Both the position numbers and the translations under genes were made by a program. DNA of 64,000 bases from a virus: IMG/VR virus record IMGVR_UViG_3300045960_000114, positions 121,266 to 185,265 of that record, one strand, 5' to 3'. Below are positions 1 through 61,986 of this stretch, piece after piece (the stretch's first letter is position 1; each line of letters opens with the position of its first letter). The notes under the pieces are model-generated. The model was not told where the DNA came from. It searched no databases and worked only from the letters and a program-made list of their open reading frames with translations.

Positions 1-222
1 CACCGCGATACGACCGGCGAGGTGCACACACGGCACGACAACCATGCACGAGCTACCGCCGCGCGGTTCTTGCAGATTGAGAACCGCGTGACGGAACTCG
101 AAGGAAGAGTTGCTAACCTGCCCACGAATCTACCTGGTCGGCTCATTGAGCTGAGAAACAGGATCGAAAGGCTCGAGCCCCGCTCAGAAAGCGGGCAACA
201 AAACGAAGGAGGGACGTCTTAA
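1..222 (+). CDS. Hypothetical protein, 5'-partial, coiled coil
   Basis: The reading frame is open from the first base and stops at 220-222. A GTG at 22 is the only start-like codon in the visible part and has no clear ribosome binding site, so the true start is probably upstream of the window. The visible part has heptad-like spacing of Leu, Ile and Val between charged residues (residues about 15-50 counted from the GTG), suggesting a short coiled coil, then a polar tail. It ends immediately before the ATG of the E2-like gene and may belong to the same transcription unit. No family recognised. Confidence 0.55.
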   Translation, partial: HRDTTGEVHTRHDNHARATAARFLQIENRVTELEGRVANLPTNLPGRLIELRNRIERLEPRSESGQQNEGGTS

Positions 223-936
223 ATGGCGGTTCCCGCACAACAACAGCGGCGTCGGATCGTCGTTCAGAATGGACTCGTTCTGATGGAGCTGGTGACGTTG
301 GAGAAGGTCGGCTCCCTCGGTGACTGGATGAACAAGGTACTGGAGTCGTCGCCCTCGCCCAGCAAGTTGCTTCCGCTCGACTGCGTGGACAACTTCTCCC
401 TGCGGCGCAAGGACACGACGCACCGCCGGATCTACGTGACATACATGCACCCCCGGATGCAGACGTTCCGCTTCCGTGGCGACCGCGCGAACGCGCAGGC
501 ACAGCAGTACGAACTGAGCTGGCCGCACACCCTCTGGTGGTTCGTGTTCTCGAACCAGCAGTTGAACGGCCTGTACCTGACCGCCACGAAGGTCTCACCG
601 TACGAGGTTCCGAACTACATGGACCTCGACTTGTTCTGGCTGCCCTGTCCGAATCAGTACCCTGAGGGTCACTTCTGCCTCGGTAACCTGAGCACGGACA
701 TCTCGTGGCCGGACTGGCGGCGCGTCAATGTCCTGCGCAATGATGTACTGTCGTCGAACTGGAACACCGACCTGATCCCGAATCTGTCCGGGTTCCCGTT
801 CAGCTCCATCCCGGAGTGGGCGGAGCAGTCGAGCCGCAAGCCGGAGCTCTGGAAGGAGCTTCCGTTCAAGCCGTACGTACACCCCACGTACCGGAAGATG
901 TGCGACTACCTGATGGGAGTGGGAGGCCGAGAGTAG
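223..936 (+). CDS. E2-like (UBC-fold) protein, PRTRC protein B type
   Basis: Likely a ubiquitin-conjugating (E2)-like protein that would take an activated ubiquitin-like modifier from the E1-like enzyme encoded downstream. The 237-residue product has a WWFVF strand (about 105-109), then the segment LPCPNQYPEGHFCLGNLS (140-157). This matches the Pro-Asn plus Cys-Leu-Gly pattern around the active-site cysteine of prokaryotic E2 families, including PRTRC system protein B; Cys152 is the candidate catalytic thiol. It starts one base after the preceding stop with GGAGG upstream, and is followed by a small helical gene, a JAMM peptidase and an E1. Assignment is by motif and neighbourhood; no alignment was run. 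An inactive E2 fold is the main alternative. Confidence 0.72.
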   Translation: MAVPAQQQRRRIVVQNGLVLMELVTLEKVGSLGDWMNKVLESSPSPSKLLPLDCVDNFSLRRKDTTHRRIYVTYMHPRMQTFRFRGDRANAQAQQYELSWPHTLWWFVFSNQQLNGLYLTATKVSPYEVPNYMDLDLFWLPCPNQYPEGHFCLGNLSTDISWPDWRRVNVLRNDVLSSNWNTDLIPNLSGFPFSSIPEWAEQSSRKPELWKELPFKPYVHPTYRKMCDYLMGVGGRE

Positions 937-937
937 C

Positions 938-1249
938 ATGGCTACGAAAGTCGAAGACGAGAAGTTGATGCAGCAGCTGATCGACGCGCTGGTGGCTATG
1001 CCTCCGGGCAAGATCCAGAGCATCCCCGAGATCATGGGTCAGTTCATGACCATGTCCCGGGAGAGCCTGGTTACGTGGGCTGGGCGGCCCGAGCAGGTGA
1101 TGGCCGCCCAGTTCATGGCCTATCTCAAAGGCCACGGCATGCTGACGGAAGTGCTGGAGTCGAAGTTCGATTCCTCGTTCAAGGTCATGACGGACGCAAT
1201 GGCGCTGTGTCCGTCAAAGGCGAGCAGAGTCTCGGAGGGAGGCCACTAA
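938..1249 (+). CDS. Small helical protein inside the E2/JAMM/E1 cassette
   Basis: A 103-residue protein encoded one base after the E2-like gene and three bases before the JAMM gene, so almost certainly co-translated with them. The sequence looks all-helical and Met-rich, and does not resemble a beta-grasp ubiquitin-like fold. It ends in Ser-Glu-Gly-Gly-His, so a di-glycine lies one residue from the C-terminus. That is the kind of tail a JAMM peptidase could trim to Gly-Gly, but the match may be chance. It could be a substrate, adaptor or regulator of the cassette. No family recognised. Confidence 0.82.
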   Translation: MATKVEDEKLMQQLIDALVAMPPGKIQSIPEIMGQFMTMSRESLVTWAGRPEQVMAAQFMAYLKGHGMLTEVLESKFDSSFKVMTDAMALCPSKASRVSEGGH

Positions 1250-1252
1250 GGG

Positions 1253-2542
1253 ATGTTTCCCATCATTCAGGTGAGCAAGGAGATGAAGGACTCCGATATC
1301 CCGCAGGAGAATTGTTATCTCATCGGGTCCAACGGGGTCTTCAAGCAGGTCGTCAACGAGTTCTACAGCGTCCGGGTGAAGAACGGATCACTCCCGGATC
1401 TGCAGGAACTCAAGGAAGACGTCGAACTCCACGTGACGCGGCTGCCCCAGCGCATCCTCGACCACGTGCACGCGTTCTTCCGCGCCGTGAACGACAAACA
1501 CAAGGGGGAGGCTGTTGTCCTCCTCATGTACCATCCCACGGACAAAAGGTGGATCGTCAAGATCCCCCCGCAGGACACAAAGGGGATGAGCGTCCACTAC
1601 GATCTGGATAAGGGCGACGCCCTCATCTGGATTCCCTCGAACGGTAAGGAAGAGATGACCTTGGTACATAACCAGCGGGAAGCCCCGCCGGAAGGTATCA
1701 AGGATTTCAGGCTCTTCGGGTCGATACACAGCCACTGTGACGCCGGCGCGTTTCACAGTGGTACGGATGACAAGGACGAGTTCTGTTTCGACGGCCTCCA
1801 CATCACGTTGGGGCACGTCAGCAAGAATCCGCCCGACATCAGTTGCCGGTGGATGTTAGCTGGCCAGTGGTGGAAAGCGGAAGCGAGCGGCTGCATTGCG
1901 TTCGACCACGCGGCACCGAAGGTGGACGACCGCTGGATGGATCGCGTAAGCGAGGTGAAGTATTCGCCCGCTGTCCAGACCTGGGTGTCCCCGCCATCGG
2001 GTACCGGGTTCGATTCGCCCATGAGCAGGCATCCGTACGATGGCAATGGGTACGGGTACAGCGGGTACGAAGGACCTGGGAGTCACGACGACCCAAAATC
2101 ACAAACCCCCACACAGGCGGGCGGCGGAAGCGCAGGAGGAAGCACAAGCGGGACGACAAATCCTGCTACCTCCTCGACTAATACGCCGGATGTGGGGGAA
2201 GATGACACACCGCCGGTGTACGAACTGTTCGCTCGGTACGAGGACGTTACTGAGCACGCAACACTCACCAGTAAGGAACTGTCCATCATCCAGTTGTGCG
2301 AGGACGACCCGCAGCTCCTGTCGTTCATGGAGACGTTGAGTGAGGAGGAACTGAAGCGGTTGCTGACTACTCACGAACTGTTCGACAAGTTCATGGAGGA
2401 GGCGTCGATCGACTTCATCGCACGCAAGCAGGCTGAAGGCGATGGTTCAGGCAAGACGGATATCGACGGCAAGCGGCTTGCCGATCTGATCGAAGAGGAG
2501 AAGGAAGCGCAAAAGGAAGGGGAGGTACTCGGGAGTGTTTGA
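1253..2542 (+). CDS. JAMM/MPN (JAB) metallopeptidase with acidic C-terminal extension
   Basis: Predicted zinc isopeptidase that would process or remove a ubiquitin-like modifier. The JAMM motif HxHx7SxxD is complete: His159-Ser-His161, Ser169 and Asp172. Glu86 on an upstream strand (HKGEAVVLL) is a candidate for the catalytic glutamate. After the MPN domain (about 60-215) come a Gly/Ser/Thr-rich low-complexity linker (about 255-315) and an acidic helical domain (about 325-429), giving 429 residues, much longer than a bare JAB domain. PRTRC modules also carry a JAB-type protein next to E2 and ThiF. The start ATG follows the previous stop closely and the end overlaps the E1-like gene by 8 bases. 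Confidence 0.85.
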   Translation: MFPIIQVSKEMKDSDIPQENCYLIGSNGVFKQVVNEFYSVRVKNGSLPDLQELKEDVELHVTRLPQRILDHVHAFFRAVNDKHKGEAVVLLMYHPTDKRWIVKIPPQDTKGMSVHYDLDKGDALIWIPSNGKEEMTLVHNQREAPPEGIKDFRLFGSIHSHCDAGAFHSGTDDKDEFCFDGLHITLGHVSKNPPDISCRWMLAGQWWKAEASGCIAFDHAAPKVDDRWMDRVSEVKYSPAVQTWVSPPSGTGFDSPMSRHPYDGNGYGYSGYEGPGSHDDPKSQTPTQAGGGSAGGSTSGTTNPATSSTNTPDVGEDDTPPVYELFARYEDVTEHATLTSKELSIIQLCEDDPQLLSFMETLSEEELKRLLTTHELFDKFMEEASIDFIARKQAEGDGSGKTDIDGKRLADLIEEEKEAQKEGEVLGSV

Positions 2543-3311
2543 ACCCAAAACTGTAGCGGTGGTGGGTTGCGGGGGGATCGGCTCATGGCTGATCCCTCCG
2601 CTCGTACGATACTTGGCGTCGGAGGACTACGACGGGGAGATAATCCTCTTCGACGGCGACAAGTACGAGGAAGGGAACGTTTGCAGGCAGGCGTTCCCCA
2701 TGCGCTGTATGGGCATGAACAAGGCGGAAGCCATGCGTGACCGCATCCTCGATGACCTGCCACACGTGCTGGTTACGGCTAACAGCCAGTACATCAGCAA
2801 GGAGACGGCTGGGATGGCCATGCGCGAGCATGGCGTGTGCTTCGCCTGCGTGGACAACCACCCGGCGCGTGCACATCTGGCCCGGCAGTGTGAGTCATTG
2901 AAGAACGGACTGTTGATCTCTCCAGCAAACGAGAAGTATGACGGCAACGTCTGCGCGTACCTGAGAGAGAATGGGAAGGAGTCCACAGAGCACCTCCTCA
3001 ACCGTCACCCGGAAATTGCGGCGAAGACCGAGGGTGACCGTGGAGCGGGCTGTGAGGCTCTTACTGCGGCAGGCGAGACGCAGCTGATGTTGGCCAATCT
3101 GTATGCGGCTACGACTGCGATGGGTGTGTTCTGGAACCTGTACAACCAGGGCATGCGCATGGAGAAGGGTACTAAGCTGACTGAGAAAGCGCAGGAAACC
3201 TTCTTCGACATCCGTACGTTGCAGGCGAATACCGTGTTCGCACCGAAAGGAGGCGTACATGCAGCTAGCCCCGATATGCCTGTCGTCGCTATTCCTGCTG
3301 GATCCGCATAG
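2535..3311 (+). CDS. E1-like / ThiF-family adenylating enzyme
   Basis: ATP-dependent activator of a ubiquitin-like protein. The N-terminal Rossmann motif GCGGIGS is at 11-17. An FDGDKYEEGNVCRQ stretch (39-52) gives the Asp and the Asn..Arg-Gln contacts to ATP, and CVDNHPAR (105-112) carries the adenylation aspartate Asp107. Cys173 in GAGCEALT lies where PRTRC-type ThiF proteins have a cysteine followed by a helical segment, and is a candidate thioester site. At 258 residues it matches single-domain E1-like proteins. The GTG start at 2535 overlaps the JAMM stop; this coupling and the E2-like neighbour argue for protein tagging rather than thiamine or molybdopterin synthesis. Confidence 0.88.
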   Translation: MFEPKTVAVVGCGGIGSWLIPPLVRYLASEDYDGEIILFDGDKYEEGNVCRQAFPMRCMGMNKAEAMRDRILDDLPHVLVTANSQYISKETAGMAMREHGVCFACVDNHPARAHLARQCESLKNGLLISPANEKYDGNVCAYLRENGKESTEHLLNRHPEIAAKTEGDRGAGCEALTAAGETQLMLANLYAATTAMGVFWNLYNQGMRMEKGTKLTEKAQETFFDIRTLQANTVFAPKGGVHAASPDMPVVAIPAGSA

Positions 3312-4113
3312 CCTGCATGAAAGCAAAGAAGTGAGTCGGGACCTGACGTTGACTGTGGCGGATGCAACGGACGACTACAACACGGACGAAGGCGATGGCG
3401 CCTGGATACCAGAGTACCTACGCTGGATTCAGAACATGTGGTTCTCACTGACCCAGGAGGAGATCCACTGGCCGGATTACCACCGGTTCGACGACGATTC
3501 ATTCCGTGAGACGCTGCGGACCGTATACCACAGAAACATGTTCGTGGAGTTCACGAACAGGTTCTACACGGAGTGGCGGGACAACCATATACACATCCCG
3601 TCCATGTATGACGTGGACTCCAGCGTACAGGATCGGGTGTGTTCCGAGTGCGAAAACGACGACGTCTGGGAGGAGGAGTATGACATGACCCAGGCGCCAA
3701 TCAATCCTGATGAGTGGACGGGGTGGGAAGTTAGTCCTCCGCGCTGTTCCGCAGCCGTTCTGTTTGCGGTTGGTGAGCGTAATGCATCACTTCGTCAGCA
3801 CATGGAGAACGCGTGGCAGCAATGGCTCGCCACACGAGAGTCGATTGGGCGCCACAATATCTGCGATGAACGATGCGATTTGTTCTACGATAACCAAGCC
3901 GATCGCATGAGGCGAATGATCGACTTCAACATCCACTGGTTGGACGCGAAGTGGCAAGCCTTTATAGGCACCACTATCCAGATCCCACCGATACCGAAGC
4001 CGATCAACGTGCTTCCTTTCCCTGAGCTGCAGATCGACCCGGCACCAGCCGTGACGATCAGGCCGCTTAGCGAGATCGCAAAGGAAGCACGAAGACTTAG
4101 ACGTGGCTGGTAA
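3259..4113 (+). CDS. Hypothetical protein, acidic and Trp-rich
   Basis: A 284-residue protein starting at an ATG preceded by AAAGGAGG and overlapping the end of the E1-like gene by 53 bases, so probably the last gene of the conjugation operon. It is rich in Trp, Tyr and acidic residues, has a CSEC pair (about 128-131) that could bind metal with later cysteines, and a Pro-rich segment (about 240-265) before a basic C-terminus. The first 14 residues are hydrophobic but short for a signal peptide. No family recognised. A GC-rich hairpin directly follows its stop codon. Confidence 0.82.
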   Translation: MQLAPICLSSLFLLDPHSLHESKEVSRDLTLTVADATDDYNTDEGDGAWIPEYLRWIQNMWFSLTQEEIHWPDYHRFDDDSFRETLRTVYHRNMFVEFTNRFYTEWRDNHIHIPSMYDVDSSVQDRVCSECENDDVWEEEYDMTQAPINPDEWTGWEVSPPRCSAAVLFAVGERNASLRQHMENAWQQWLATRESIGRHNICDERCDLFYDNQADRMRRMIDFNIHWLDAKWQAFIGTTIQIPPIPKPINVLPFPELQIDPAPAVTIRPLSEIAKEARRLRRGW

Positions 4114-6097: not shown

Positions 6098-6985
6098 ATG
6101 CCGAATCTCGAGTCGTTCCCGCTCGGCTATCTGCTCAAGGGTGACGAGGGGGGTGATATCCTGATCAAGGCTTCAGTGAGGATGCTGGGCGAGCTGGCAC
6201 GTGGTGGGGTGATCGACCACAGCGTGGTGGATGAGCCCATGCTGATCAGGTGCATTCGGTTGGAGGAGGGCGGGCGTATCATGCATGTATTTCGGTCTGG
6301 TACGTACCGCGTGCACCTGGCGGAGAGAGAACTGGATCTGACTTGTGAACAGGACGAGGCGTGGTGCCGATTGGTGGAATTCACCTGTCTGCATGGGATG
6401 GCGGGCGAACTGCTGGTCTGTGACAGTGGCGGAATGGTGCCTGTGCGTACGAAGCTGGCCAGTGGCGAGAAGATCTGTGCCGCGGGTCCGTATTCGTCTT
6501 CACTGGTCAAGCAACGCCCGGAGCCGAAGCAGGATGTGGTCAATGAGGCGGTTCGCAGCGCTGCGAAGACGGCGTCCTTCGCGAATAACGAACGCAGGGT
6601 CAAGCTACGCCCGAAGTTGAAGAACCCGTTGGATGAGACGCCGGCATCGTCGCCGAGAGACATTGATGCCGAGTGGGCACATTGGCTGCGGCATGGTGCG
6701 CAGGAACTGGAGGCGAAGCGGGTGAAGGAGATGCTTGCGCGCCGGTATGCCGCGTTGCCTGAGAATGCGGTGACGAAGGCGGACGCGGACAGGATCAGGG
6801 ATCAGGTGAAGCTGCAGGGCGAACTACATTACCAGCTGGATTTGATCCGTGCGGCAGTCGAGTACCTGGAAGACAGGCTGGAGAACGCCAAGCAGCTGGG
6901 TATCCGCAAGGAGCTTACGGACAAGAGCGAGCGGATCATCAAGTTCATCCGCGATGACGATAGGGGGCGCCAGACAAAAGCGTAG
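6098..6985 (+). CDS. Hypothetical protein, beta N-terminus and helical C-terminus
   Basis: A 295-residue protein with AGGAGG seven bases before the ATG. Residues 1-140 are mixed alpha/beta with several Cys residues, 140-190 form a polar linker, and 190-295 are helical with likely coiled-coil content (LEDRLENAKQLGI). The layout suggests a nucleic-acid- or protein-binding head with an oligomerising tail. No family recognised. Confidence 0.82.
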   Translation: MPNLESFPLGYLLKGDEGGDILIKASVRMLGELARGGVIDHSVVDEPMLIRCIRLEEGGRIMHVFRSGTYRVHLAERELDLTCEQDEAWCRLVEFTCLHGMAGELLVCDSGGMVPVRTKLASGEKICAAGPYSSSLVKQRPEPKQDVVNEAVRSAAKTASFANNERRVKLRPKLKNPLDETPASSPRDIDAEWAHWLRHGAQELEAKRVKEMLARRYAALPENAVTKADADRIRDQVKLQGELHYQLDLIRAAVEYLEDRLENAKQLGIRKELTDKSERIIKFIRDDDRGRQTKA

Positions 6986-17739: not shown

Positions 17740-18024
17740 ATGAGTCATTGTGCTTGGCATGTAAAGTTCCTCGAGGGTTCACCTGACTGTGATGACAAGC
17801 CAATTCGCATTCCAGGGGGTGTACGTGTTGTGTACGGGGGGAATTATATTGATCATACGCTTGCTGGAGAGACTGTTCGCCAGGTGGCGAAGCGGTGGCG
17901 TTGTTTCTTTTCTATACGCAGACGTTCGAGGTGTTTTGTAAATGAGCAGCCTTCCAACCGTAATTACAGACTTGAACCTGGGGACCGTTTGGAGTTCGTT
18001 CCACCTGGCGATTGTTGCCGATAA
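17740..18024 (+). CDS. ThiS/MoaD-like beta-grasp (ubiquitin-like) protein
   Basis: Ninety-four residues from the ATG at 17740. The order is that of sulfur-carrier and ubiquitin-like beta-grasp proteins: a hairpin (VRVVYGGNYIDHTL), a helix (GETVRQVAKRWRCFF), then CFVNEQPSNRNYRLEPGDRL, matching the ThiS/MoaD pattern VNG..V.....L..GDRLEF. The tail is VPPGDCCR, without terminal Gly-Gly, so it would need trimming or would act non-covalently. It is the only candidate modifier in the window for the E1/E2/JAMM set at 0.2-3.3 kb. Family by pattern; link to the cassette is inference. Confidence 0.6.
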   Translation: MSHCAWHVKFLEGSPDCDDKPIRIPGGVRVVYGGNYIDHTLAGETVRQVAKRWRCFFSIRRRSRCFVNEQPSNRNYRLEPGDRLEFVPPGDCCR

Positions 18025-40759: not shown

Positions 40760-40760
40760 G

Positions 40761-40832
40761 GTCACGGTAGCTCATAATGGCAGAGCAGCGGCCTTCGGGC
40801 TGTATGCGTGGGTTCGATTCCCACTCGTGACC
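40761..40832 (+). tRNA. tRNA-like gene with abnormal anticodon arm
   Basis: The acceptor stem (40761-40767 with 40825-40831, one G-U), D arm (GCTC/GAGC) and T arm (GTGGG-TTCGATT-CCCAC) are textbook, with no encoded CCA. The anticodon arm is not: the best fold is CGGCC-TTCG-GGCTG, a UUCG tetraloop instead of a 7-base loop. If a standard loop is forced, CTTCGGG would read anticodon TCG (Arg), but its stem does not pair. A degenerate tRNA or tRNA mimic between two coding genes. Confidence 0.55.
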
Positions 40833-40850
40833 TCATTACAAGGAGAACGC

Positions 40851-54129: not shown

Positions 54130-57100
54130 GTGGCAATCATTGGCTCTACTGATCTGGGTGATGGGCGTCGTGCATTATCCGTCGACGTCGATCCCGTTAT
54201 TACGCCGCCAGTTGAGGCGGTAGTCGGCGACCTCGTCGAATACAATGGCCTGTGGTACTACTTCAATGGGTCGATTTGCGTCCCTGAGCTCAATATCCAT
54301 GGTTATCTTCATGCCCCTGGGGGCGCTGATCCGCTGCCCAGTGGTTCCATTGGATCTGGGATGTTGGGCGATGGGGTTGTGCTCTCTGCGAATATCGCTT
54401 CCGGCCAGATTGGTGCGAACCATCTGGCTTCCGGTGTGCTTTCTGATATCGATCTGACGTCGGGTTCAGTTCAGTCTGGGCTACTGGGTAACGGGGCTGT
54501 CGTTTCAGCCAATATCGCTTCTGGGCAGATCGGCGCTTCCCACCTGGCTTCCGGCGTCCTGACTGCGTTCAGCTTCACGTCAGGGATTGTTCAGTCTGGG
54601 CTGCTCGGCAATGGTGCCGTCTTGTCCGGGAACATTGCGTCGGGTCAAGTCTCATCAGCTCATTTTGCAAGCGGTACCATCCTTCCGCCCGCAAGCGGTT
54701 CAATTCATTCCGGAATGCTTGGCAACGGCGCGGTTGTTTCTGGCAGCATTGCATCGGGTCAGATCTCCTCAGCTCACTTTGCGAGCGGCACCATCTTGCC
54801 ACCGGCGAGTGGCTCGATCAAGAGCGGCATGTTGGCAAATGGCGCCGTTGTTTCTGGTTCCATTGCCAGCGGTCAGATCGCTTCGGCTCACTTTGCGAGC
54901 GGCACCATCCTCCCCCCGGCTTCCGGCGCAATAACGAGCGGTATGCTGGGCAATGCGGCAGTCGTTTCGGGAAGTATCGCTTCGGGTCAGATCGGGCTGA
55001 ATCACCTGGCCAGCGGAGTCCTCACGAACGTTTCGTCTGGCTCGATACAGTCTGGTGATCTGGGTGCGGGTTCAGTTCTTAGCGCAAACTTCGCGTCGGG
55101 CCAGATCAGCAGCGCTCATTTCGCTTCGGGAACCATTCTTCCTCCTGCCAGCGGTTCCATCGTCAGTGGAATGCTTGGCAACGGAGCCGTCACTTCCGGC
55201 TCCATAGCGAGTGGCCAGATCTCTTCGGCTCACTTTGCTTCAGGAACCGTGCTCCCGAACAATCTCACAAGCGGCGGTGTTACCAGCGGTGACATTGGAA
55301 ATAGCGCTGTTGTATCTGGTTCGATCGCTTCTGGTCAGATCAGTTCGGCTCACTTTGCTTCCGGTACGATCCTGCCCAACAACATCACCAGCGGCGGTGT
55401 GACGAGCGGGATGCTGGGTAATGGGGCAGTCGTATCTGGTTCCATTGCTTCTGGCTCGGTCGGGTTGTACGCCTTGGCCTCCGGGCTGCTGACAAACCTT
55501 CTTTCCGGTTACGTGACCTCGGGCGACCTGGCTGATGGCGTTGTGTTCAGCTCCAACATCGCCAGTGGGCAGGTATCGTCTGCGCATTTTGCTTCAGGCA
55601 CGCTTCTTCCCAATCAGATCACCAGTGGCGGGATCACCAGCGGCGACCTGGGCAACGCTTCTGTGGTTTCCGGTTCCATTGCCAGCGGTCAGATCTCCAG
55701 CGCTCACTTCGCTTCCGGCACGATCCTTCCGCCGGCCTCCGGCTCTATCAAGAGCGGCATGCTGGCGGATGGGTCTGTGGTCAGCGGGTCGATCGCCTCT
55801 GGCTCGATCGGGCAGTACCAGCTGGCTTCCGGCGTTACAGCCCAAGTCACATCCGGGGCGATCACGTCGGGCGACCTGGGCAATGCTTCCGTCACTTCTG
55901 GAAACATTGCTTCGGGGCAGATCAGCTCGGCACATTTCGCTTCAGGGACGATTCTTCCCCCGGGCAGCGGGTCGATTACCAGCTCAATGCTGGCATCCGG
56001 CACAGTCATTCCATTCACACTGACCTCTGGCATCGTTACCTCTGGCCTGATTGGAAATGGCGCAGTCGTAAGCGGCAGTATTGCGTCTGGGCAGATCTCT
56101 TCGGCGCATTTTGCCAGCGGTACGATCCTGCCGCCGCAGAGCGGGTCGATCACCAGCGGCATGCTCGGCGATGCTGCTGTTCTTTCGGGCTCCATCGGCA
56201 GCGGTCAGATCAGTAAGGAGCACCTGGCTTCCGGCGTCATCCCGCCGCTGATCACCTCAGGCATCGTGGCGTCAGGCGACCTGGATGCTGGCTCTGTTCT
56301 TAGTGGCAACATCGCTTCTGGCCAGATCAGCTCCGCCCATTTCGCTTCTGGTACGATCCTTCCGCCTGGAAGTGGGTCGATCACGAGTTCGATGCTGGCT
56401 TCGGGTACTGTCATCCCGTTCGCCCTGACTTCCGGCATCATCACGTCTGGAATGCTTGGGAATGGATCAGTCGTATCGGGAAGCATCGCCAGCGGCTCGA
56501 TCGGGCCGACGCATCTTGCCTCCGGTGCTGTTCCACCGTCACTGACATCTGGCTTTGTGACGTCCGGTTACTTGGGCGACGGCGCTGTGGTCAGTGGTTC
56601 GATCGCCAGCGGCCAGATCGGCGCCAGCCATCTGGCTTCCGGGGTTCTGTCCAGCTTCACGTTGACTTCAGGTGTGGTACGGTCCGGACACATTGGCGAT
56701 GGCGCCGTGGTCAGTGGCTCGATCGCCAGTGGACAGGTGTCGTCCGCGCATTTTGCCAGCGGTACGATCCTTCCTAATCAGATTACCTCCGGCGGCATTA
56801 CCAGTGGGATGCTGGGCAATGGGTCGGTCGTGTCCGGTTCCGTGGCTTCCGGTTCCATCGGTGCGTCTCATCTGGCATCAGGGACCATTACGGCCTTCTC
56901 GCTTTCGTCTGGCTCTGTCCAATCGGGTCACCTGGGCAACGGGTCGGTTGTTTCGGGCAGCATTGCAAGCGGGCAAGTCAGCAGCGCACATTTTGCTTCG
57001 GGTACGATCCTTCCCAACAACATCACCAGTGGCGGTATCACCTCTGGCATGATTGGGAACGGTGCCACTGCTTCCGCCAACATTGCTTCCGGATTCATCT

Positions 57101-60100
57101 GTTACGGTACGCACTTGCAGTCTGGGGCTGTTGTATCTGCGCATTACGCATCCGGCAGCATCAGTTACTTCAAGATCGCTTCCGGCCAGGTGCAGGCGCA
57201 GACGATCGGTTCGGGTGCAGTCACTTCCGGTAAATACGCCTCTGGTTCAATCTCTGCATTCAAGTTGGCCAGTGGTATTCTTGACTCATCGATCTACCTC
57301 GGCAGCGGCGTGGTCACGTCTGGTGCCATCGCGTCAGGTCAGATCGGCGAGTTCCACCTGGCTTCTGGGCAGCGCATCACGTCCGGGGCGATCGGTTCCG
57401 GTATCCTTGCGAACAACTCCGTGGTATCCGGCTCCATTGCTTCTGGGCAGATTGGCGAGTTCCACCTGGCTTCTGGGCAGCGCATCGCGTCTGGATCGAT
57501 CGGCTCAGGCATCCTTGCAAACAACTCTGTTGTGTCTGGTTCCATTGCCTCAGGGCAGGTGAGCAGCGCTCACTTCGCCTCGGGTACCATTCTCCCGAAC
57601 CAGATCACATCTGGTGGTGTCACGAGTGGCATGCTCGGCAATGGTTCGGTGGTCTCCGGCTCCGTTGCCTCAGGCTCCATTGGCGCTTCCCATCTGGCTT
57701 CAGGGACCATTACGGCTTTCTCGCTATCGTCTGGCTCTGTACAGTCCGGACACATCGGTAACGGTGCTGTGGTCAGCGGAAGTATTGCCAGCGGCCAGAT
57801 CAGCAGCGCGCACTTCGCTTCCGGCACGATCCTTCCCCCTGCTTCGGGTTCGATCACTTCCGGGATGCTGGGCAACTCCTCGATCATGTCGGGAAGTGTT
57901 GCCAGCGGTCAGCTCAGCTGGCCTCACTTCTCCAGCGGTTCCATCACCTCCGGTCATTTCCTGTATAACAATCTGGCCGGTACGGGCATCGAGTACGGTG
58001 GCATTCTCGGCACCAGCGTTGATCCGATGAAGTTCAACATCGGTTCTGGCGCGGGCTGGGTGATCGATAATGTCACTGACCCAGTTCACCCGGTCGTCAC
58101 ATACGTCCAATGGCCATTCATGTCTGGATTGACTGATGACTGGCTGTCTTCGGGTAACCAGACTCAGATCGCCATCACGGCCAGTGGTACGGTTTACCAG
58201 CAAGCTGGCGACCCGTTTACGGTAGCGCAGACGCGCAGTCTCATCTTGCTGGGAAAGACGGTCCATCCGATCGCGGCGTCCGGCATCATTCGAGTCAACA
58301 TTGCGCCTCGCCCGCTAATCAATGCTGCATTGGATTCGGATGACTTGTCGACTGCGTTGGGCATCATCACAGTCAATGGCAGCGTTTATGGACCTAATGG
58401 CGCGAACCTGAACATCGACCGCACGCTTGGCACGCAGTATCGCGTCGGTGGCGGTTATGCGTCTGGTTTGCTTACGCCGAATTTTGTGGTCATGGGCGCG
58501 GCGACTGCGCTGTCGCTCAACTACCGCTACCAGAATGGAATCGGCGGGTTCAACACAGGCGCAACCCGTACGACGATCGATCCAGATAACTACGATGATG
58601 GTGATGGCACGCTGGCGGCAGTTCCGTCTAATCAATGGACTATCCAGCGTATTTACCTGTTCAGCACGGGTGCCACGTATGTCACGTACGGCCAGAAGAC
58701 CTACAACAAGTACGATGACGCGATTGTCGGCCTTCGCACTGAGATGCCGGTCATCGATCCGAATTTCTCTTCTGACGCGGCGTTGCGCTGTTTCCTGATC
58801 GTGCAGCAAGGCACCACCAACCTCACCAATGCCACGTTTGTTGCCGCAGGCAAGCTGGGCGAGATTACTGGCGCCGGCGCCACAACTCTTCCGCTTGGGT
58901 CTGGTTCGGTCACGAGCGGTATGCTGGGCAATGCTGTCGTAGTTAGCAGTTCGATTGCCAGCGGCCAGATTGGTCAGTACCACGTAGCCAGCGGATTCAT
59001 AATCTCGCTGAGAGTTTCCGGTTACCTGACTTCTGGCTACCTTGGGGATGGTGCTGTTGTCAGTGGATCGATTGCCAGCGGCCAGGTCAGCTCGGCCCAC
59101 TTCGCGTCAGGAACGATCCTGCCGCCTGCCAGTGGAAGTATCACCAGCGGAATGCTCGGTAACGGGGCGGTAATCTCCAGTTCGATAGCTTCCGGGCAGA
59201 TCGCAGGTGCTCACTTAGCTGCTGGCGCAGTTTTGAGCGCTAACATTGCCAGCGGCCAGGTCGGCGCTACTCATCTGGCATCTGGCACCGTCTTCTCCTT
59301 GACCTCTGGCATCATACAGTCGGGATACTTGGGTAACCGGTCTGTGGTGTCGGGCAGTATTGGCAGCGGCCAGATCTGGCGGTCACACTTCGCTTCTGGT
59401 CTTCAGTCTGTCTCGCAGTTTGTCACGGTTGCTCAGTCTGGTAATGCGGACTTCTCCACGATTCAGGGCGCCATTGACTCGATCACGGATGCCACGGGCG
59501 TCAAGAACTACGTCGTCATGGTCCACCCAGGTATCTACAGGGAAAGTCCGGTCCTGAAGCCGTACGTCTCGCTTGTTGGAGTATGTCCCCCCAGCGCTTT
59601 CGGGACAAACGGGACGAATGGGAATGTATCCATAGAAGGGTACGTAGGTAGCGGCGTTGTGGTAACACTTTCAGATGATACGCTTATTGCGAATCTGGCG
59701 CTCAATGGGCGTGTTCGAGATGGATACAACAGCGGTGGCGCATTCCTTAATACTGCCAGTGGTACTAAGTTTACGGTTGTCCACGCTCCTGGTGTCACAG
59801 ACGGATACGATGGACAGGTCATTGATAACTGTACGATTACCGCGTACGGAGACGTTGAGGGTACAGGTCATGACTTCTCAGCGATCTTACTTCCGGTATC
59901 CGGATACGCGCTGGCTATACGAAACACGAAAATGTCCCTGTTCGGCTTCCCGGGCGGGAAGATGCGTGGTATTGAGATTCAAGGTGAGGATGCGTCGGTT
60001 GAGCTGACCCACTGTGAAGTTTTGCGCTTCGATGACGCCAGTTCTGGTACGATATTCTACGATCGAGCGATGTCCGGTTATGGTGAGGATTTTATTCAAG

Positions 60101-61986
60101 ATCTATCTTTTGCCAGAGTTCCTCAATCCGGCGCGGTTATGTTCAATACTCCCGGAGCCCTTTGGGTGAAGGAACTGAAACGCAGTCTTGGGGATTTAGA
60201 TCCTTATATCGATCCCTACGTAATTCTTGCCAGCGGGGATCTCATTCGTTTTGATGCAACGAGCCCGGCGTGGGGTATGGGCATCGGCTCTGGCCGCGTA
60301 TTCTCGGGAGCGCTCGGTAACGGTTCTGTTGTTTCCGGGTCGATCGCTTCTGGTCAGATTGCTAGTCCTCACCTGGCCGCGGAAGCAGTTCGTAGTGCAA
60401 ACATTGCCAGTGGGCAGGTGGGCACGTTACACCTTGCCAGTGGGATAGCCATCACCTCCGGTACGATCATCGCGTTCGATCTGGCCGACAATGTGGTGCT
60501 CTCGGCCAACATTGCCAGCGGGCAGGTGGGTGGCTTCCAGCTGGCATCCGGTGGAGTCACCTCGGCGGCCTACGCCTCGGGCTCAGTCTCCACGTTCAAG
60601 CTGGCGCTGGGGGCTGTCACTTCTTCGATCATTGCAAGCGGGCAGGTTGGCACGACGCACATCGGTGCTGGTGCTGTGCGGAGTTCCAACATCGGAAGCG
60701 GGCAGATCAGCAGCGCCCATTTCGCTTCCGGCACGATCATGCCCAACCAGATCACGTCTGGAGGCATCACCAGCGGCATGCTGGGGAACGGGTCGGTCGT
60801 TTCCGGTTCCGTCGCTTCCGGTTCAATCGGCGCTTCCCATCTGGCTTCCGGCACGATCACGGCCTTCTCGCTGTCTTCGGGCTCCGTGCAGTCCGGACAT
60901 CTTGGAAATGGTTCGGTAGTCAGCGGTTCGATCGCCAGCGGCCAGGTATCGTCTGCGCACTTTGCCTCCGGCACCATCCTGCCGCCGGCGTCGGGCTCGA
61001 TCACTTCCGGCATGCTTGGCAACGGGTCCGTGATTTCGAGTTCGATTGCTTCGGGACAGATTGGTCTTACTCATCTCGCGTCCGGTGTGATTCCCACAGG
61101 TAGCCTGTCTTCCGGTTCAGTTACCAGTGGGTATCTCGGCAACGGCTCGGTGGTCAGCGGCTCGATCGCCAGCGGGCAGATCGGTTACGTCCATCTGGCT
61201 TCGGGCACCATCCCTCCGGTATGGCTGACGAAGACGTCGGCTTACACGGCGAACCCCAGGGAAGCCATCGCAGCCGACACGTTGACCATCGGCGCCTGGT
61301 CGCTGACTCTTCCGCCATCGCCAAGCCTTGGCGACTGGGTGAAGATCGCCGACTGCAAGAGCAACTTCGCGAACGCGAACCTTACTCTGCTGCGTAACGG
61401 CTCATTGCTGCAGGGGCTGGCTGAGGACATGACGCTGTCCATCAACAGCCTTGACATCACCTTCGAGTTCGCTGGCGCTACGCTGGGCTGGCAGATCGCG
61501 AACTACCTGACTTCCCCGACGGCCCTCCCGATGCCGGCTGGCGTGGTGGCGGCCAAGGATTTGGGGCAGACCAACTACTGGTCGGGGTCCATCTCCAGGG
61601 AGAACATCATCTACGGTCCGTCGATGAACTTCCTGAGCGGGGCCGCGAACGTCACTTGTCCAGTGCCGCCAAATACTCAAATCTGGCTATCGGAAGTGGG
61701 CTGGATCCAGACGCAGTGCACGCTGGTCAGCGGCAGCTCCATTGCTACACAGCCGACGATCCAGGCAGGCATCTCGGGAACGCTGGCTAAGTATCTGGCG
61801 CCGGTGCAGACGACTTTGCTGCTGGCCTCCGGCAAGCGTGAACGGTTCGCGACGTTGCTGCAGGACGACGCGGAGGTCACGATGGCAGCTGGGTTCGTGT
61901 CAGGCGCGGTGATCGCCAGCGGCGGCGCAGGGCAGCTGTACGCTGGCCGACCGTTCTGGGTGTTCAGAGCTGTGGAGAACCAGTAG
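54130..61986 (+). CDS. Giant repetitive fibre protein with pectin-lyase-like domain
   Basis: A 2618-residue protein from a GTG just after the previous stop. After about 80 residues it is built from dozens of roughly 38-residue repeats with the core SGSIASGQISSAHFASGT and SGMLGNG. Non-repeat inserts lie at about 1277-1587 (a mixed domain) and 1763-2054, where FSTIQGAIDSI and VVMVHPGIYRE...YVSLVGV match pectin-lyase-like beta helices. The last 260 residues contain a common phage-fibre beta domain (LPPSPSLGDWVKIAD). Probably a long tail fibre or host-surface-binding, glycan-degrading appendage. The same peptides are encoded by varied synonymous codons. Confidence 0.88.
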   Translation: MAIIGSTDLGDGRRALSVDVDPVITPPVEAVVGDLVEYNGLWYYFNGSICVPELNIHGYLHAPGGADPLPSGSIGSGMLGDGVVLSANIASGQIGANHLASGVLSDIDLTSGSVQSGLLGNGAVVSANIASGQIGASHLASGVLTAFSFTSGIVQSGLLGNGAVLSGNIASGQVSSAHFASGTILPPASGSIHSGMLGNGAVVSGSIASGQISSAHFASGTILPPASGSIKSGMLANGAVVSGSIASGQIASAHFASGTILPPASGAITSGMLGNAAVVSGSIASGQIGLNHLASGVLTNVSSGSIQSGDLGAGSVLSANFASGQISSAHFASGTILPPASGSIVSGMLGNGAVTSGSIASGQISSAHFASGTVLPNNLTSGGVTSGDIGNSAVVSGSIASGQISSAHFASGTILPNNITSGGVTSGMLGNGAVVSGSIASGSVGLYALASGLLTNLLSGYVTSGDLADGVVFSSNIASGQVSSAHFASGTLLPNQITSGGITSGDLGNASVVSGSIASGQISSAHFASGTILPPASGSIKSGMLADGSVVSGSIASGSIGQYQLASGVTAQVTSGAITSGDLGNASVTSGNIASGQISSAHFASGTILPPGSGSITSSMLASGTVIPFTLTSGIVTSGLIGNGAVVSGSIASGQISSAHFASGTILPPQSGSITSGMLGDAAVLSGSIGSGQISKEHLASGVIPPLITSGIVASGDLDAGSVLSGNIASGQISSAHFASGTILPPGSGSITSSMLASGTVIPFALTSGIITSGMLGNGSVVSGSIASGSIGPTHLASGAVPPSLTSGFVTSGYLGDGAVVSGSIASGQIGASHLASGVLSSFTLTSGVVRSGHIGDGAVVSGSIASGQVSSAHFASGTILPNQITSGGITSGMLGNGSVVSGSVASGSIGASHLASGTITAFSLSSGSVQSGHLGNGSVVSGSIASGQVSSAHFASGTILPNNITSGGITSGMIGNGATASANIASGFICYGTHLQSGAVVSAHYASGSISYFKIASGQVQAQTIGSGAVTSGKYASGSISAFKLASGILDSSIYLGSGVVTSGAIASGQIGEFHLASGQRITSGAIGSGILANNSVVSGSIASGQIGEFHLASGQRIASGSIGSGILANNSVVSGSIASGQVSSAHFASGTILPNQITSGGVTSGMLGNGSVVSGSVASGSIGASHLASGTITAFSLSSGSVQSGHIGNGAVVSGSIASGQISSAHFASGTILPPASGSITSGMLGNSSIMSGSVASGQLSWPHFSSGSITSGHFLYNNLAGTGIEYGGILGTSVDPMKFNIGSGAGWVIDNVTDPVHPVVTYVQWPFMSGLTDDWLSSGNQTQIAITASGTVYQQAGDPFTVAQTRSLILLGKTVHPIAASGIIRVNIAPRPLINAALDSDDLSTALGIITVNGSVYGPNGANLNIDRTLGTQYRVGGGYASGLLTPNFVVMGAATALSLNYRYQNGIGGFNTGATRTTIDPDNYDDGDGTLAAVPSNQWTIQRIYLFSTGATYVTYGQKTYNKYDDAIVGLRTEMPVIDPNFSSDAALRCFLIVQQGTTNLTNATFVAAGKLGEITGAGATTLPLGSGSVTSGMLGNAVVVSSSIASGQIGQYHVASGFIISLRVSGYLTSGYLGDGAVVSGSIASGQVSSAHFASGTILPPASGSITSGMLGNGAVISSSIASGQIAGAHLAAGAVLSANIASGQVGATHLASGTVFSLTSGIIQSGYLGNRSVVSGSIGSGQIWRSHFASGLQSVSQFVTVAQSGNADFSTIQGAIDSITDATGVKNYVVMVHPGIYRESPVLKPYVSLVGVCPPSAFGTNGTNGNVSIEGYVGSGVVVTLSDDTLIANLALNGRVRDGYNSGGAFLNTASGTKFTVVHAPGVTDGYDGQVIDNCTITAYGDVEGTGHDFSAILLPVSGYALAIRNTKMSLFGFPGGKMRGIEIQGEDASVELTHCEVLRFDDASSGTIFYDRAMSGYGEDFIQDLSFARVPQSGAVMFNTPGALWVKELKRSLGDLDPYIDPYVILASGDLIRFDATSPAWGMGIGSGRVFSGALGNGSVVSGSIASGQIASPHLAAEAVRSANIASGQVGTLHLASGIAITSGTIIAFDLADNVVLSANIASGQVGGFQLASGGVTSAAYASGSVSTFKLALGAVTSSIIASGQVGTTHIGAGAVRSSNIGSGQISSAHFASGTIMPNQITSGGITSGMLGNGSVVSGSVASGSIGASHLASGTITAFSLSSGSVQSGHLGNGSVVSGSIASGQVSSAHFASGTILPPASGSITSGMLGNGSVISSSIASGQIGLTHLASGVIPTGSLSSGSVTSGYLGNGSVVSGSIASGQIGYVHLASGTIPPVWLTKTSAYTANPREAIAADTLTIGAWSLTLPPSPSLGDWVKIADCKSNFANANLTLLRNGSLLQGLAEDMTLSINSLDITFEFAGATLGWQIANYLTSPTALPMPAGVVAAKDLGQTNYWSGSISRENIIYGPSMNFLSGAANVTCPVPPNTQIWLSEVGWIQTQCTLVSGSSIATQPTIQAGISGTLAKYLAPVQTTLLLASGKRERFATLLQDDAEVTMAAGFVSGAVIASGGAGQLYAGRPFWVFRAVENQ

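Follow-up and report, generated by a model that had tools for sequence, protein, structure and literature searches.

A phage-borne gene cassette with the predicted parts of a ubiquitin-like conjugation pathway

The stretch analysed here, called the window, consisted of 64,000 bases of DNA, bases 121266-185265 of the 185,265-base IMG/VR virus record IMGVR_UViG_3300045960_000114. The left end of the window contained four co-directional, tightly packed open reading frames (ORFs) for a putative conjugating enzyme (E2), a 103-aa protein, a JAMM metallopeptidase and a putative activating enzyme (E1). A gene for a candidate ubiquitin-like modifier (Ubl) was located outside the window, and these genes together are referred to as the cassette. 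The phage nature of the record was evident from a terminase large subunit (1.2e-44) and a tail sheath (1.6e-10); a tail-fibre-like giant protein, a ribonucleotide reductase and pieces of a multi-subunit RNA polymerase were also present. The cassette genes were as follows.

G000:120435-120644 (L001:15436-15645), outside the window: Ubl gene, 69 aa, ending SGEKGC.
223..936, + strand: E2-like conjugating enzyme, 237 aa, Cys152 in PNQYPEGHFCLG; Prok-E2_D via relatives.
938..1249, + strand: small protein, 103 aa; same position in near relatives.
1253..2542, + strand: predicted JAMM/JAB metallopeptidase, 429 aa; Glu86, His159, His161, Ser169, Asp172.
2535..3311, + strand: predicted minimal E1 (ThiF-like), 258 aa; GCGGIG, Asp107, Cys173.

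The original prediction for this DNA had described four coupled genes, for an E2-like protein, a small helical protein, a JAMM peptidase and an E1-like enzyme. All four were found at these positions with their predicted active sites intact; the observation was correct but incomplete, with the modifier gene missing from it.

The Ubl gene was located 621-830 bases left of the window edge, and its product read MVKIV...VVEFIKQSGEKGC. The AlphaFold model of the Ubl, built with 19 related sequences, was a compact beta-grasp with the order beta-beta-alpha-beta-beta-beta, a loose C-terminus and a mean predicted local distance difference test score (pLDDT) of 88.9. Foldseek search of the PDB returned MoaD (template modelling score, TM 0.78), NEDD8, archaeal ubiquitin, ubiquitin, SUMO, and ThiS at probability 1.00, with E <0.001 for the top match alone, an RNF complex subunit. 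The model thus had the beta-grasp that characterises ubiquitin-like modifiers, and a Gly end is predicted after processing. Pfam gave a weak ThiS match. A 15-pair terminator-like hairpin and seven T were found directly 3' of the Ubl gene (L001:15674-15708), so the Ubl may be transcribed separately from the enzymes and more strongly than them.

Alignment of 20 sequences showed that Lys67-Gly68 of the Ubl was invariant. The residue after Lys-Gly was Cys in the window phage and in the relatives L017, L026, L031, L032, and L044; the other tails were Ala, Asp-Gly, TDSVA, SCR, Phe, and Val-Tyr. In L019 (three units), L053 (two units), and L047 (at least three units), the Ubls were arranged in tandem with the junction directly after Lys-Gly. 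Tandem Ubls, again with each junction directly after Lys-Gly, were also present in two isolates, Vibrio phage D69 (three units with linkers) and Bacillus phage KLEB27-3 (four units). The KLEB27-3 gene was as follows.

L077:3180-3887: KLEB27-3 tetra-Ubl gene, four 57-aa units, each ending AGVKG; annotated as a hypothetical protein.

The KLEB27-3 units shared 79-84% identity in DNA and 89-100% in protein (51-57 of 57 residues). Because the DNA had drifted while the protein was nearly unchanged, each unit is under protein-level constraint. Among 11 PRTRC plasmids, the Ubl was without extension in all four that lacked a JAMM gene and carried an extension in five of the seven that had one. This association, in a small sample of related plasmids, is suggestive only of the JAMM as a maturation peptidase. 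Taken together, the Lys-Gly tails, the tandem junctions and the plasmid pattern point to the JAMM as the peptidase that matures the Ubl.

Queried alone against family libraries, the window E2 gave no match. In the E2 alignment, 15 of the 22 members matched Prok-E2_D (PF14460, best 1e-25), and the window E2 could therefore be placed by alignment in the Prok-E2_D superfamily. The invariant residues of this alignment were Asn144, Cys152, and Gly154, and otherwise the start Met alone; Cys152 was the residue that had been singled out when the protein was first called E2-like. The signature of eukaryotic E2s is HPN-x7-C, and the Gly at Cys-3 is likewise of eukaryotic-type spacing. The window E2 kept the PN-x7-C register (Asn144-8-Cys152, Gly at Cys-3), with the His of HPN absent; the loop was longer by two residues in L017-L019 and L059, and by one in L044. 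Comparison of the E2 model with viral models gave three significant matches, none functionally named, and the E2 profile yielded no informative match in the PDB. Family homology and the active-site signature are the basis of the E2 assignment, which is putative.

The JAMM protein matched PRTRC_A (TIGR03735, E=8.3e-9) and Prok-JAB (PF14464, E=0.0011), both below the curated cut-offs, and the PDB gave no useful match to its profile. Alignment of five sequences showed that His159, His161, Ser169, and Asp172, the complete JAMM motif of the original prediction, were invariant together with Glu86. The N-terminal region was present and alignable; the C-terminal regions varied widely, and the acidic tail that had been considered unusual was not conserved. 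The E1 matched ThiF (PF00899, E=2.6e-18) above the cut-off, and its best specialised family was PRTRC_ThiF (1.1e-17). The GxGGxG loop (GCGGIGS in the window), Asp107 and Cys173, by which the E1-like enzyme had been recognised, were invariant in six diverse aligned sequences. The best PDB match of the E1 profile was ThiF, and the profile also reached Cap2 and BubCD. With the E1 alone as query, no IMG/VR relative was found; the alignment-based search succeeded.

A search with the JAMM alignment gave 48 viral loci; the profiles built from the starting alignments were iterated on those loci and are partly circular. The census unit was the viral contig with a distinct E1 protein, 38 in number. Among these contigs, all found through JAMM, JAMM and E1 were present in 38/38, a recognisable E2 in 35/38, and a Ubl-like gene nearby, its product ending x-K-G plus 0-8 residues, in 32/38 (22 by profile and 10 by motif and position). 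This co-occurrence was far beyond chance. A second viral scan with the E1 revealed more contigs of the window type, for example L092, L093, L094, and L096, whose Ubls ended in AGQKG, AGVKG, AGEKG, and AGEKG, respectively; second-scan matches with an E1 under about 100 bits mostly lacked an E2 and were left out of the cassette count. Many of the cassette-bearing contigs were 120-260 kb in length.

The same gene order, which the original prediction had suggested searching for in phage databases, recurred in both isolated phages and metagenomic viral contigs. Five of 50,697 phage records carried the cassette: Salmonella phage Arash, Vibrio phages D69, D148, and D181, and Bacillus phage KLEB27-3. 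Compared with the 38 viral contigs, this number showed that cultured phages seldom carry the cassette and that it recurs in metagenomes. The cassette genes of the isolates were annotated as 'hypothetical', 'structural protein', 'PRTRC_A domain-containing', or 'ThiF'. The Arash Ubl (OQ632216; L009:107-307, gp251c) was annotated in the wrong frame, and the true 66-aa product ends RRTGTKG. The annotated start of the D69 E1 (L008:5989-6948) at 6193 removes the nucleotide-binding loop; the frame was open upstream, with no obvious ATG.

In the 192-kb contig L017, the gene order was DNA polymerase, single-stranded DNA-binding-like protein, RecA, helix-turn-helix protein, 145-aa protein, 240-aa protein, Ubl, E2, JAMM, and E1, and the identity with the window phage was 25-50% across this syntenic block. 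L066 was a contig binned with a Planctomycetota genome, yet a terminase homologue was located about 2 kb upstream of its cassette; it kept the Ubl, E2, 103-aa protein, JAMM, E1, and 284-aa protein. A variant architecture was found in L023-L035, L038, and L043, where the E2 domain lay within a protein of 820-1228 aa and the Ubl, N-terminally extended, came after E1; a second ThiF-like protein of about 290 aa followed in most of them.

Three matches were not counted as phage cassettes. The H5 phage match (L011) lay among ABC-transporter and molybdopterin-type genes and looked like an ordinary MoeB, and H6 was annotated as bacterial YgdL in host gene surroundings; both were used as tree outgroups only. 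The human fecal record MT835919 (L010) branched with Bacillota contigs.

In the E1 tree, the window E1 grouped with L017, L018, and L066 (support 100/94), within a clade of 21 members that included 18 IMG/VR contigs and two metagenome-bin contigs (97/93). Arash and D69 were placed in another viral clade, and KLEB27-3 at a third place near Bacillota plasmids. Since the cassette E1s fell in distinct places, several separate phage lineages hold the system. The outgroup branches were long, and the tree gave no direction of transfer. In the Arash group, the nonsynonymous rate (dN) was well below the synonymous rate (dS) for Ubl, E2, JAMM, and E1.

The tree also bears on the possibility that a plasmid PRTRC module was recently acquired by one phage, or that a plasmid was misfiled as viral. 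The nearest specialised families were PRTRC families, and some IMG/VR E1s branched with plasmids and bacterial contigs, as such an origin would predict. Ten PRTRC plasmid E1s, however, formed a separate clade (100/100), with the window E1 outside it in a clade that was viral apart from the two metagenome-bin contigs. In addition, genes for a terminase large subunit, a tail sheath and tail-fibre-like proteins are present in the record, the syntenic block is also found in L017, and isolated phages carry the cassette. A plasmid origin of this kind is considered very improbable.

The set of genes probably constitutes a self-contained phage pathway for ubiquitin-like conjugation, as judged from sequence and predicted structure. 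From these parts we infer the following steps of processing, thioester relay and conjugation. The Ubl would be made as a precursor, either with a short tail after Lys-Gly (one Cys here) or as a head-to-tail polyprotein. The JAMM would cut after that Gly and may also strip the tag from targets. The E1, through Asp107 and Cys173, would adenylate the exposed Ubl Gly with ATP and then load the Ubl onto Cys173; the E2 would accept the Ubl on Cys152 and pass it to amino groups of target proteins. The 103-aa protein and the CxxC...CxxxC protein encoded downstream of E1 would perhaps assist conjugation.

Several observations speak against such a pathway. The E1 was of ThiF/MoeB size, without the extra domains of eukaryotic E1s, and no target or ligase (E3) was identified for the phage cassette. 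As to a UBC fold in the 237-residue protein, the AlphaFold model was fairly confident (pLDDT 83) and gave no match under 1e-3 in the PDB; its weak matches repeatedly included UbcH5, UbcH8, Ube2T, and other eukaryotic E2s.

The same parts could instead serve a sulfur-carrier pathway, in which a ThiS/MoaD- or QbsE-like Ubl is trimmed by the JAMM and thiocarboxylated by the E1, the E2-like protein is a scaffold, and the sulfur goes to a nucleotide, a tRNA or a small molecule. MoaD as the best TM-score of the Ubl, the weak Pfam ThiS match, and an E1 of ThiF size whose best PDB profile matches were ThiF are consistent with it, and there is a precedent in the siderophore carrier QbsE, from which a JAMM trims a Cys-Phe tail. 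However, an E2-like protein with an invariant Cys and the E2 signature accompanied the cassette in the 35 contigs noted above, the gene maps and family scans made showed no sulfurtransferase or rhodanese next to the cassette, and the Ubl terminus was Lys-Gly, not Gly-Gly. A sulfur-carrier role therefore appears improbable, and conjugation of the Ubl to proteins is the preferred reading.

If proteins are conjugated, our leading guess, held tentatively, is that the targets are the phage's own virion or assembly proteins. In L066 the cassette is close to a terminase homologue, and in Arash it was located between the structural block and the terminase on the opposite strand, with the label 'structural protein' on E1 and E2. 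The basis of this label is unstated in the record, the label was also on scattered genes, and the JAMM was without it, which reduces its value as support; scattered use is what would be expected of proteomics. In the window phage, the cassette adjoined replication genes (DNA polymerase and RecA), about 25 kb from the terminase, a position that also counts against a virion target.

Alternatively, the tag may disable host defence or metabolism, or block superinfecting phages in a Bil-like manner. This variant, which is equally tentative, concerns the target and overlaps with the judgement given above on the mechanism. The cassette has the same four predicted activities as BilABCD and the same Ubl-E2-DUB-E1 order (DUB, deubiquitinase). 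Bil, Bub, and type II cyclic-oligonucleotide-based anti-phage signalling systems (CBASS) are described (PMC13373217, PMC10097602) as immune or putative immune pathways that use E1/E2/JAB-type enzymes, and this favours a host or rival-phage target. Against it stand the long retention of the cassette in several phage lineages and its place beside structural or replication genes, not in an obvious accessory block. The two kinds of target were about level, with the phage's own virion slightly favoured on position alone.

A bolder proposal, for which the odds are rather poor, is that several large-phage lineages modify their own virion proteins during infection, with polyubiquitin-style precursors and virion-borne E1 and E2. 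If true, a virus of bacteria would encode a self-sufficient ubiquitin-type pathway and direct it at its own particle.

The other genes around the cassette and a second Ubl-like gene were as follows.

1..222, + strand: 3' end of a coiled-coil gene, whole gene 244 aa (L001:15754-16488), between the Ubl and E2 genes.
3259..4113, + strand: protein downstream of E1, 284 aa, CxxC...CxxxC; start codon uncertain.
17740..18024, + strand: second Ubl-like protein, 94 aa; Ubl profile E=1.6e-10.

The 103-aa protein of the cassette shared 28.6% identity with the L066 protein and 29.2% with the L018 protein; L019 had an unmatched small protein at this position. The 284-aa protein had blastp relatives in L018 and L066, and the CxxC...CxxxC motif was common to the L017, L018, and L066 relatives. 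It is possibly a zinc-binding accessory protein; a role as E3 would be speculation. The second Ubl-like protein ended PPGDCCR, without Lys-Gly, and resembled the L019 Ubl; it is a candidate paralogue, perhaps non-conjugated or differently processed. The 244-aa coiled-coil gene was rejected as a core member, as no relative's cassette has it, and the 240-aa upstream gene was rejected as a PRTRC ParB and resembled DUF1016_N.

Elsewhere in the record, L001:5818-8754 encoded a family A DNA polymerase in which a uracil-DNA-glycosylase-like domain (4.2e-17) at the N-terminus precedes the exonuclease domain. The pieces of the multi-subunit phage RNA polymerase were found at L005:3-2609, L005:5183-7027, and L006:16109-19999. 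The last of these, a long ORF, also matched a 'thymidylate synthase' PHROG over part of its length, a segment that may be an intein or a homing-endonuclease insert. A tRNA-like gene was located at window 40760-40834 on the + strand (Rfam tRNA, 46.8 bits), with an anticodon not assignable by ARAGORN. At window 54130-61986, also on the + strand, a 2618-aa protein matched tail fibre and virion structural PHROGs in many stretches.

Bacterial ubiquitin-like conjugation has so far mainly been discussed either for its part in anti-phage immunity (CBASS Cap2, Bil) or as plasmid modules without explanation. Phages with a complete set of their own (modifier, E1, E2, and JAMM) would reverse these roles, and the question becomes what a phage gains from tagging. 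The presence of the cassette in cultured Salmonella, Vibrio, and Bacillus phages opens it to experiment. Such kits were already known from plasmids and bacterial defence. In the literature compared, which did not include the central Bil and Bub papers, no description of the cassette as a recurrent phage set was found.

PRTRC modules (TIGR03734-TIGR03738) have homologous E1, E2, and JAMM proteins and the same Ubl-E2-JAMM-E1 order, and their Ubl often ends (A)GxKG, with or without a tail, as in the phages. The PRTRC-like family logic of the original prediction was borne out by the best families (PRTRC_ThiF and PRTRC_A), by Prok-E2_D and by the modifier next door; plain PRTRC membership was not. 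The JAMM reached 35.3 bits against a PRTRC_A cut-off of 101.8, and the E1 64.3 bits against a PRTRC_ThiF cut-off of 144.75. At E<=10, neither the PRTRC_C modifier nor the PRTRC ParB family had a match in the record, and the Ubl of the relative L060 reached 20.2 bits against the PRTRC_C cut-off of 45.95. PRTRC modules also differ in their E1 clade and in their E2 motif, SxFTHPN (F-x-His), which is replaced by FNxDL in the phage E2s and by WNTDL in the window E2. Tandem Ubls were found in several phages and in none of the PRTRC plasmids examined.

Operon type 6d, described from bacteria, contains a Ubl with a C-terminal Gly, a JAB with an N-terminal domain, an E1-like protein, an E2-like protein, and a helical protein (PMC1779556). 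The JAB N-terminal alpha+beta domain has a conserved Arg and Trp, and the helical partner has conserved charged residues (PMC1779556). In type 6d E2s, a His downstream of the Cys is absolutely conserved and was proposed as an active-site residue (Iyer, Burroughs and Aravind 2006, PMC1779556). The phage cassette likewise had Ubl, JAB, E1, and E2 side by side, with Gly and then one Cys at the end of the Ubl in the window phage. In contrast, the His was absent from the window E2, and Asp was found in the downstream region equivalent to the His in nearly all of the 22 phage-set E2s. As Asp stands where the proposed active-site His would be, the phage E2s probably use it in place of the 6d/PRTRC His. 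By its sequences, the cassette belongs to the broad operon type 6d/PRTRC superfamily and not to PRTRC proper.

The E1, E2, and JAB activities are also found in Bil (BilA-D), Bub, and type II CBASS Cap2/Cap3, which are encoded by defence or mobile operons. In comparison with these systems (Bil and Bub by description), the cassette was phage-borne, its E1 and E2 were separate minimal proteins, and its best family was PRTRC. In PADLOC, the E1 matched only generic E1-E2 models, and NCBIfam gave no Bil-named match. The lambda-type pair TAPI (Ubl) and TAPK (JAB and NlpC) is similar as a phage Ubl-JAB pair linked to virion assembly; it has no E1 or E2, whereas the window phage has the full predicted conjugation set.

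Eukaryotic polyubiquitin genes consist of head-to-tail units with Gly at the junctions, whose protein sequence is near-constant while the DNA drifts, as in the phage tandem genes. The phage units differ in being about 57-90 aa, in ending Lys-Gly, and in being presumably processed by the linked JAMM. In their tandem arrangement and in the protein-level constraint on their units, these phage genes clearly parallel polyubiquitin.

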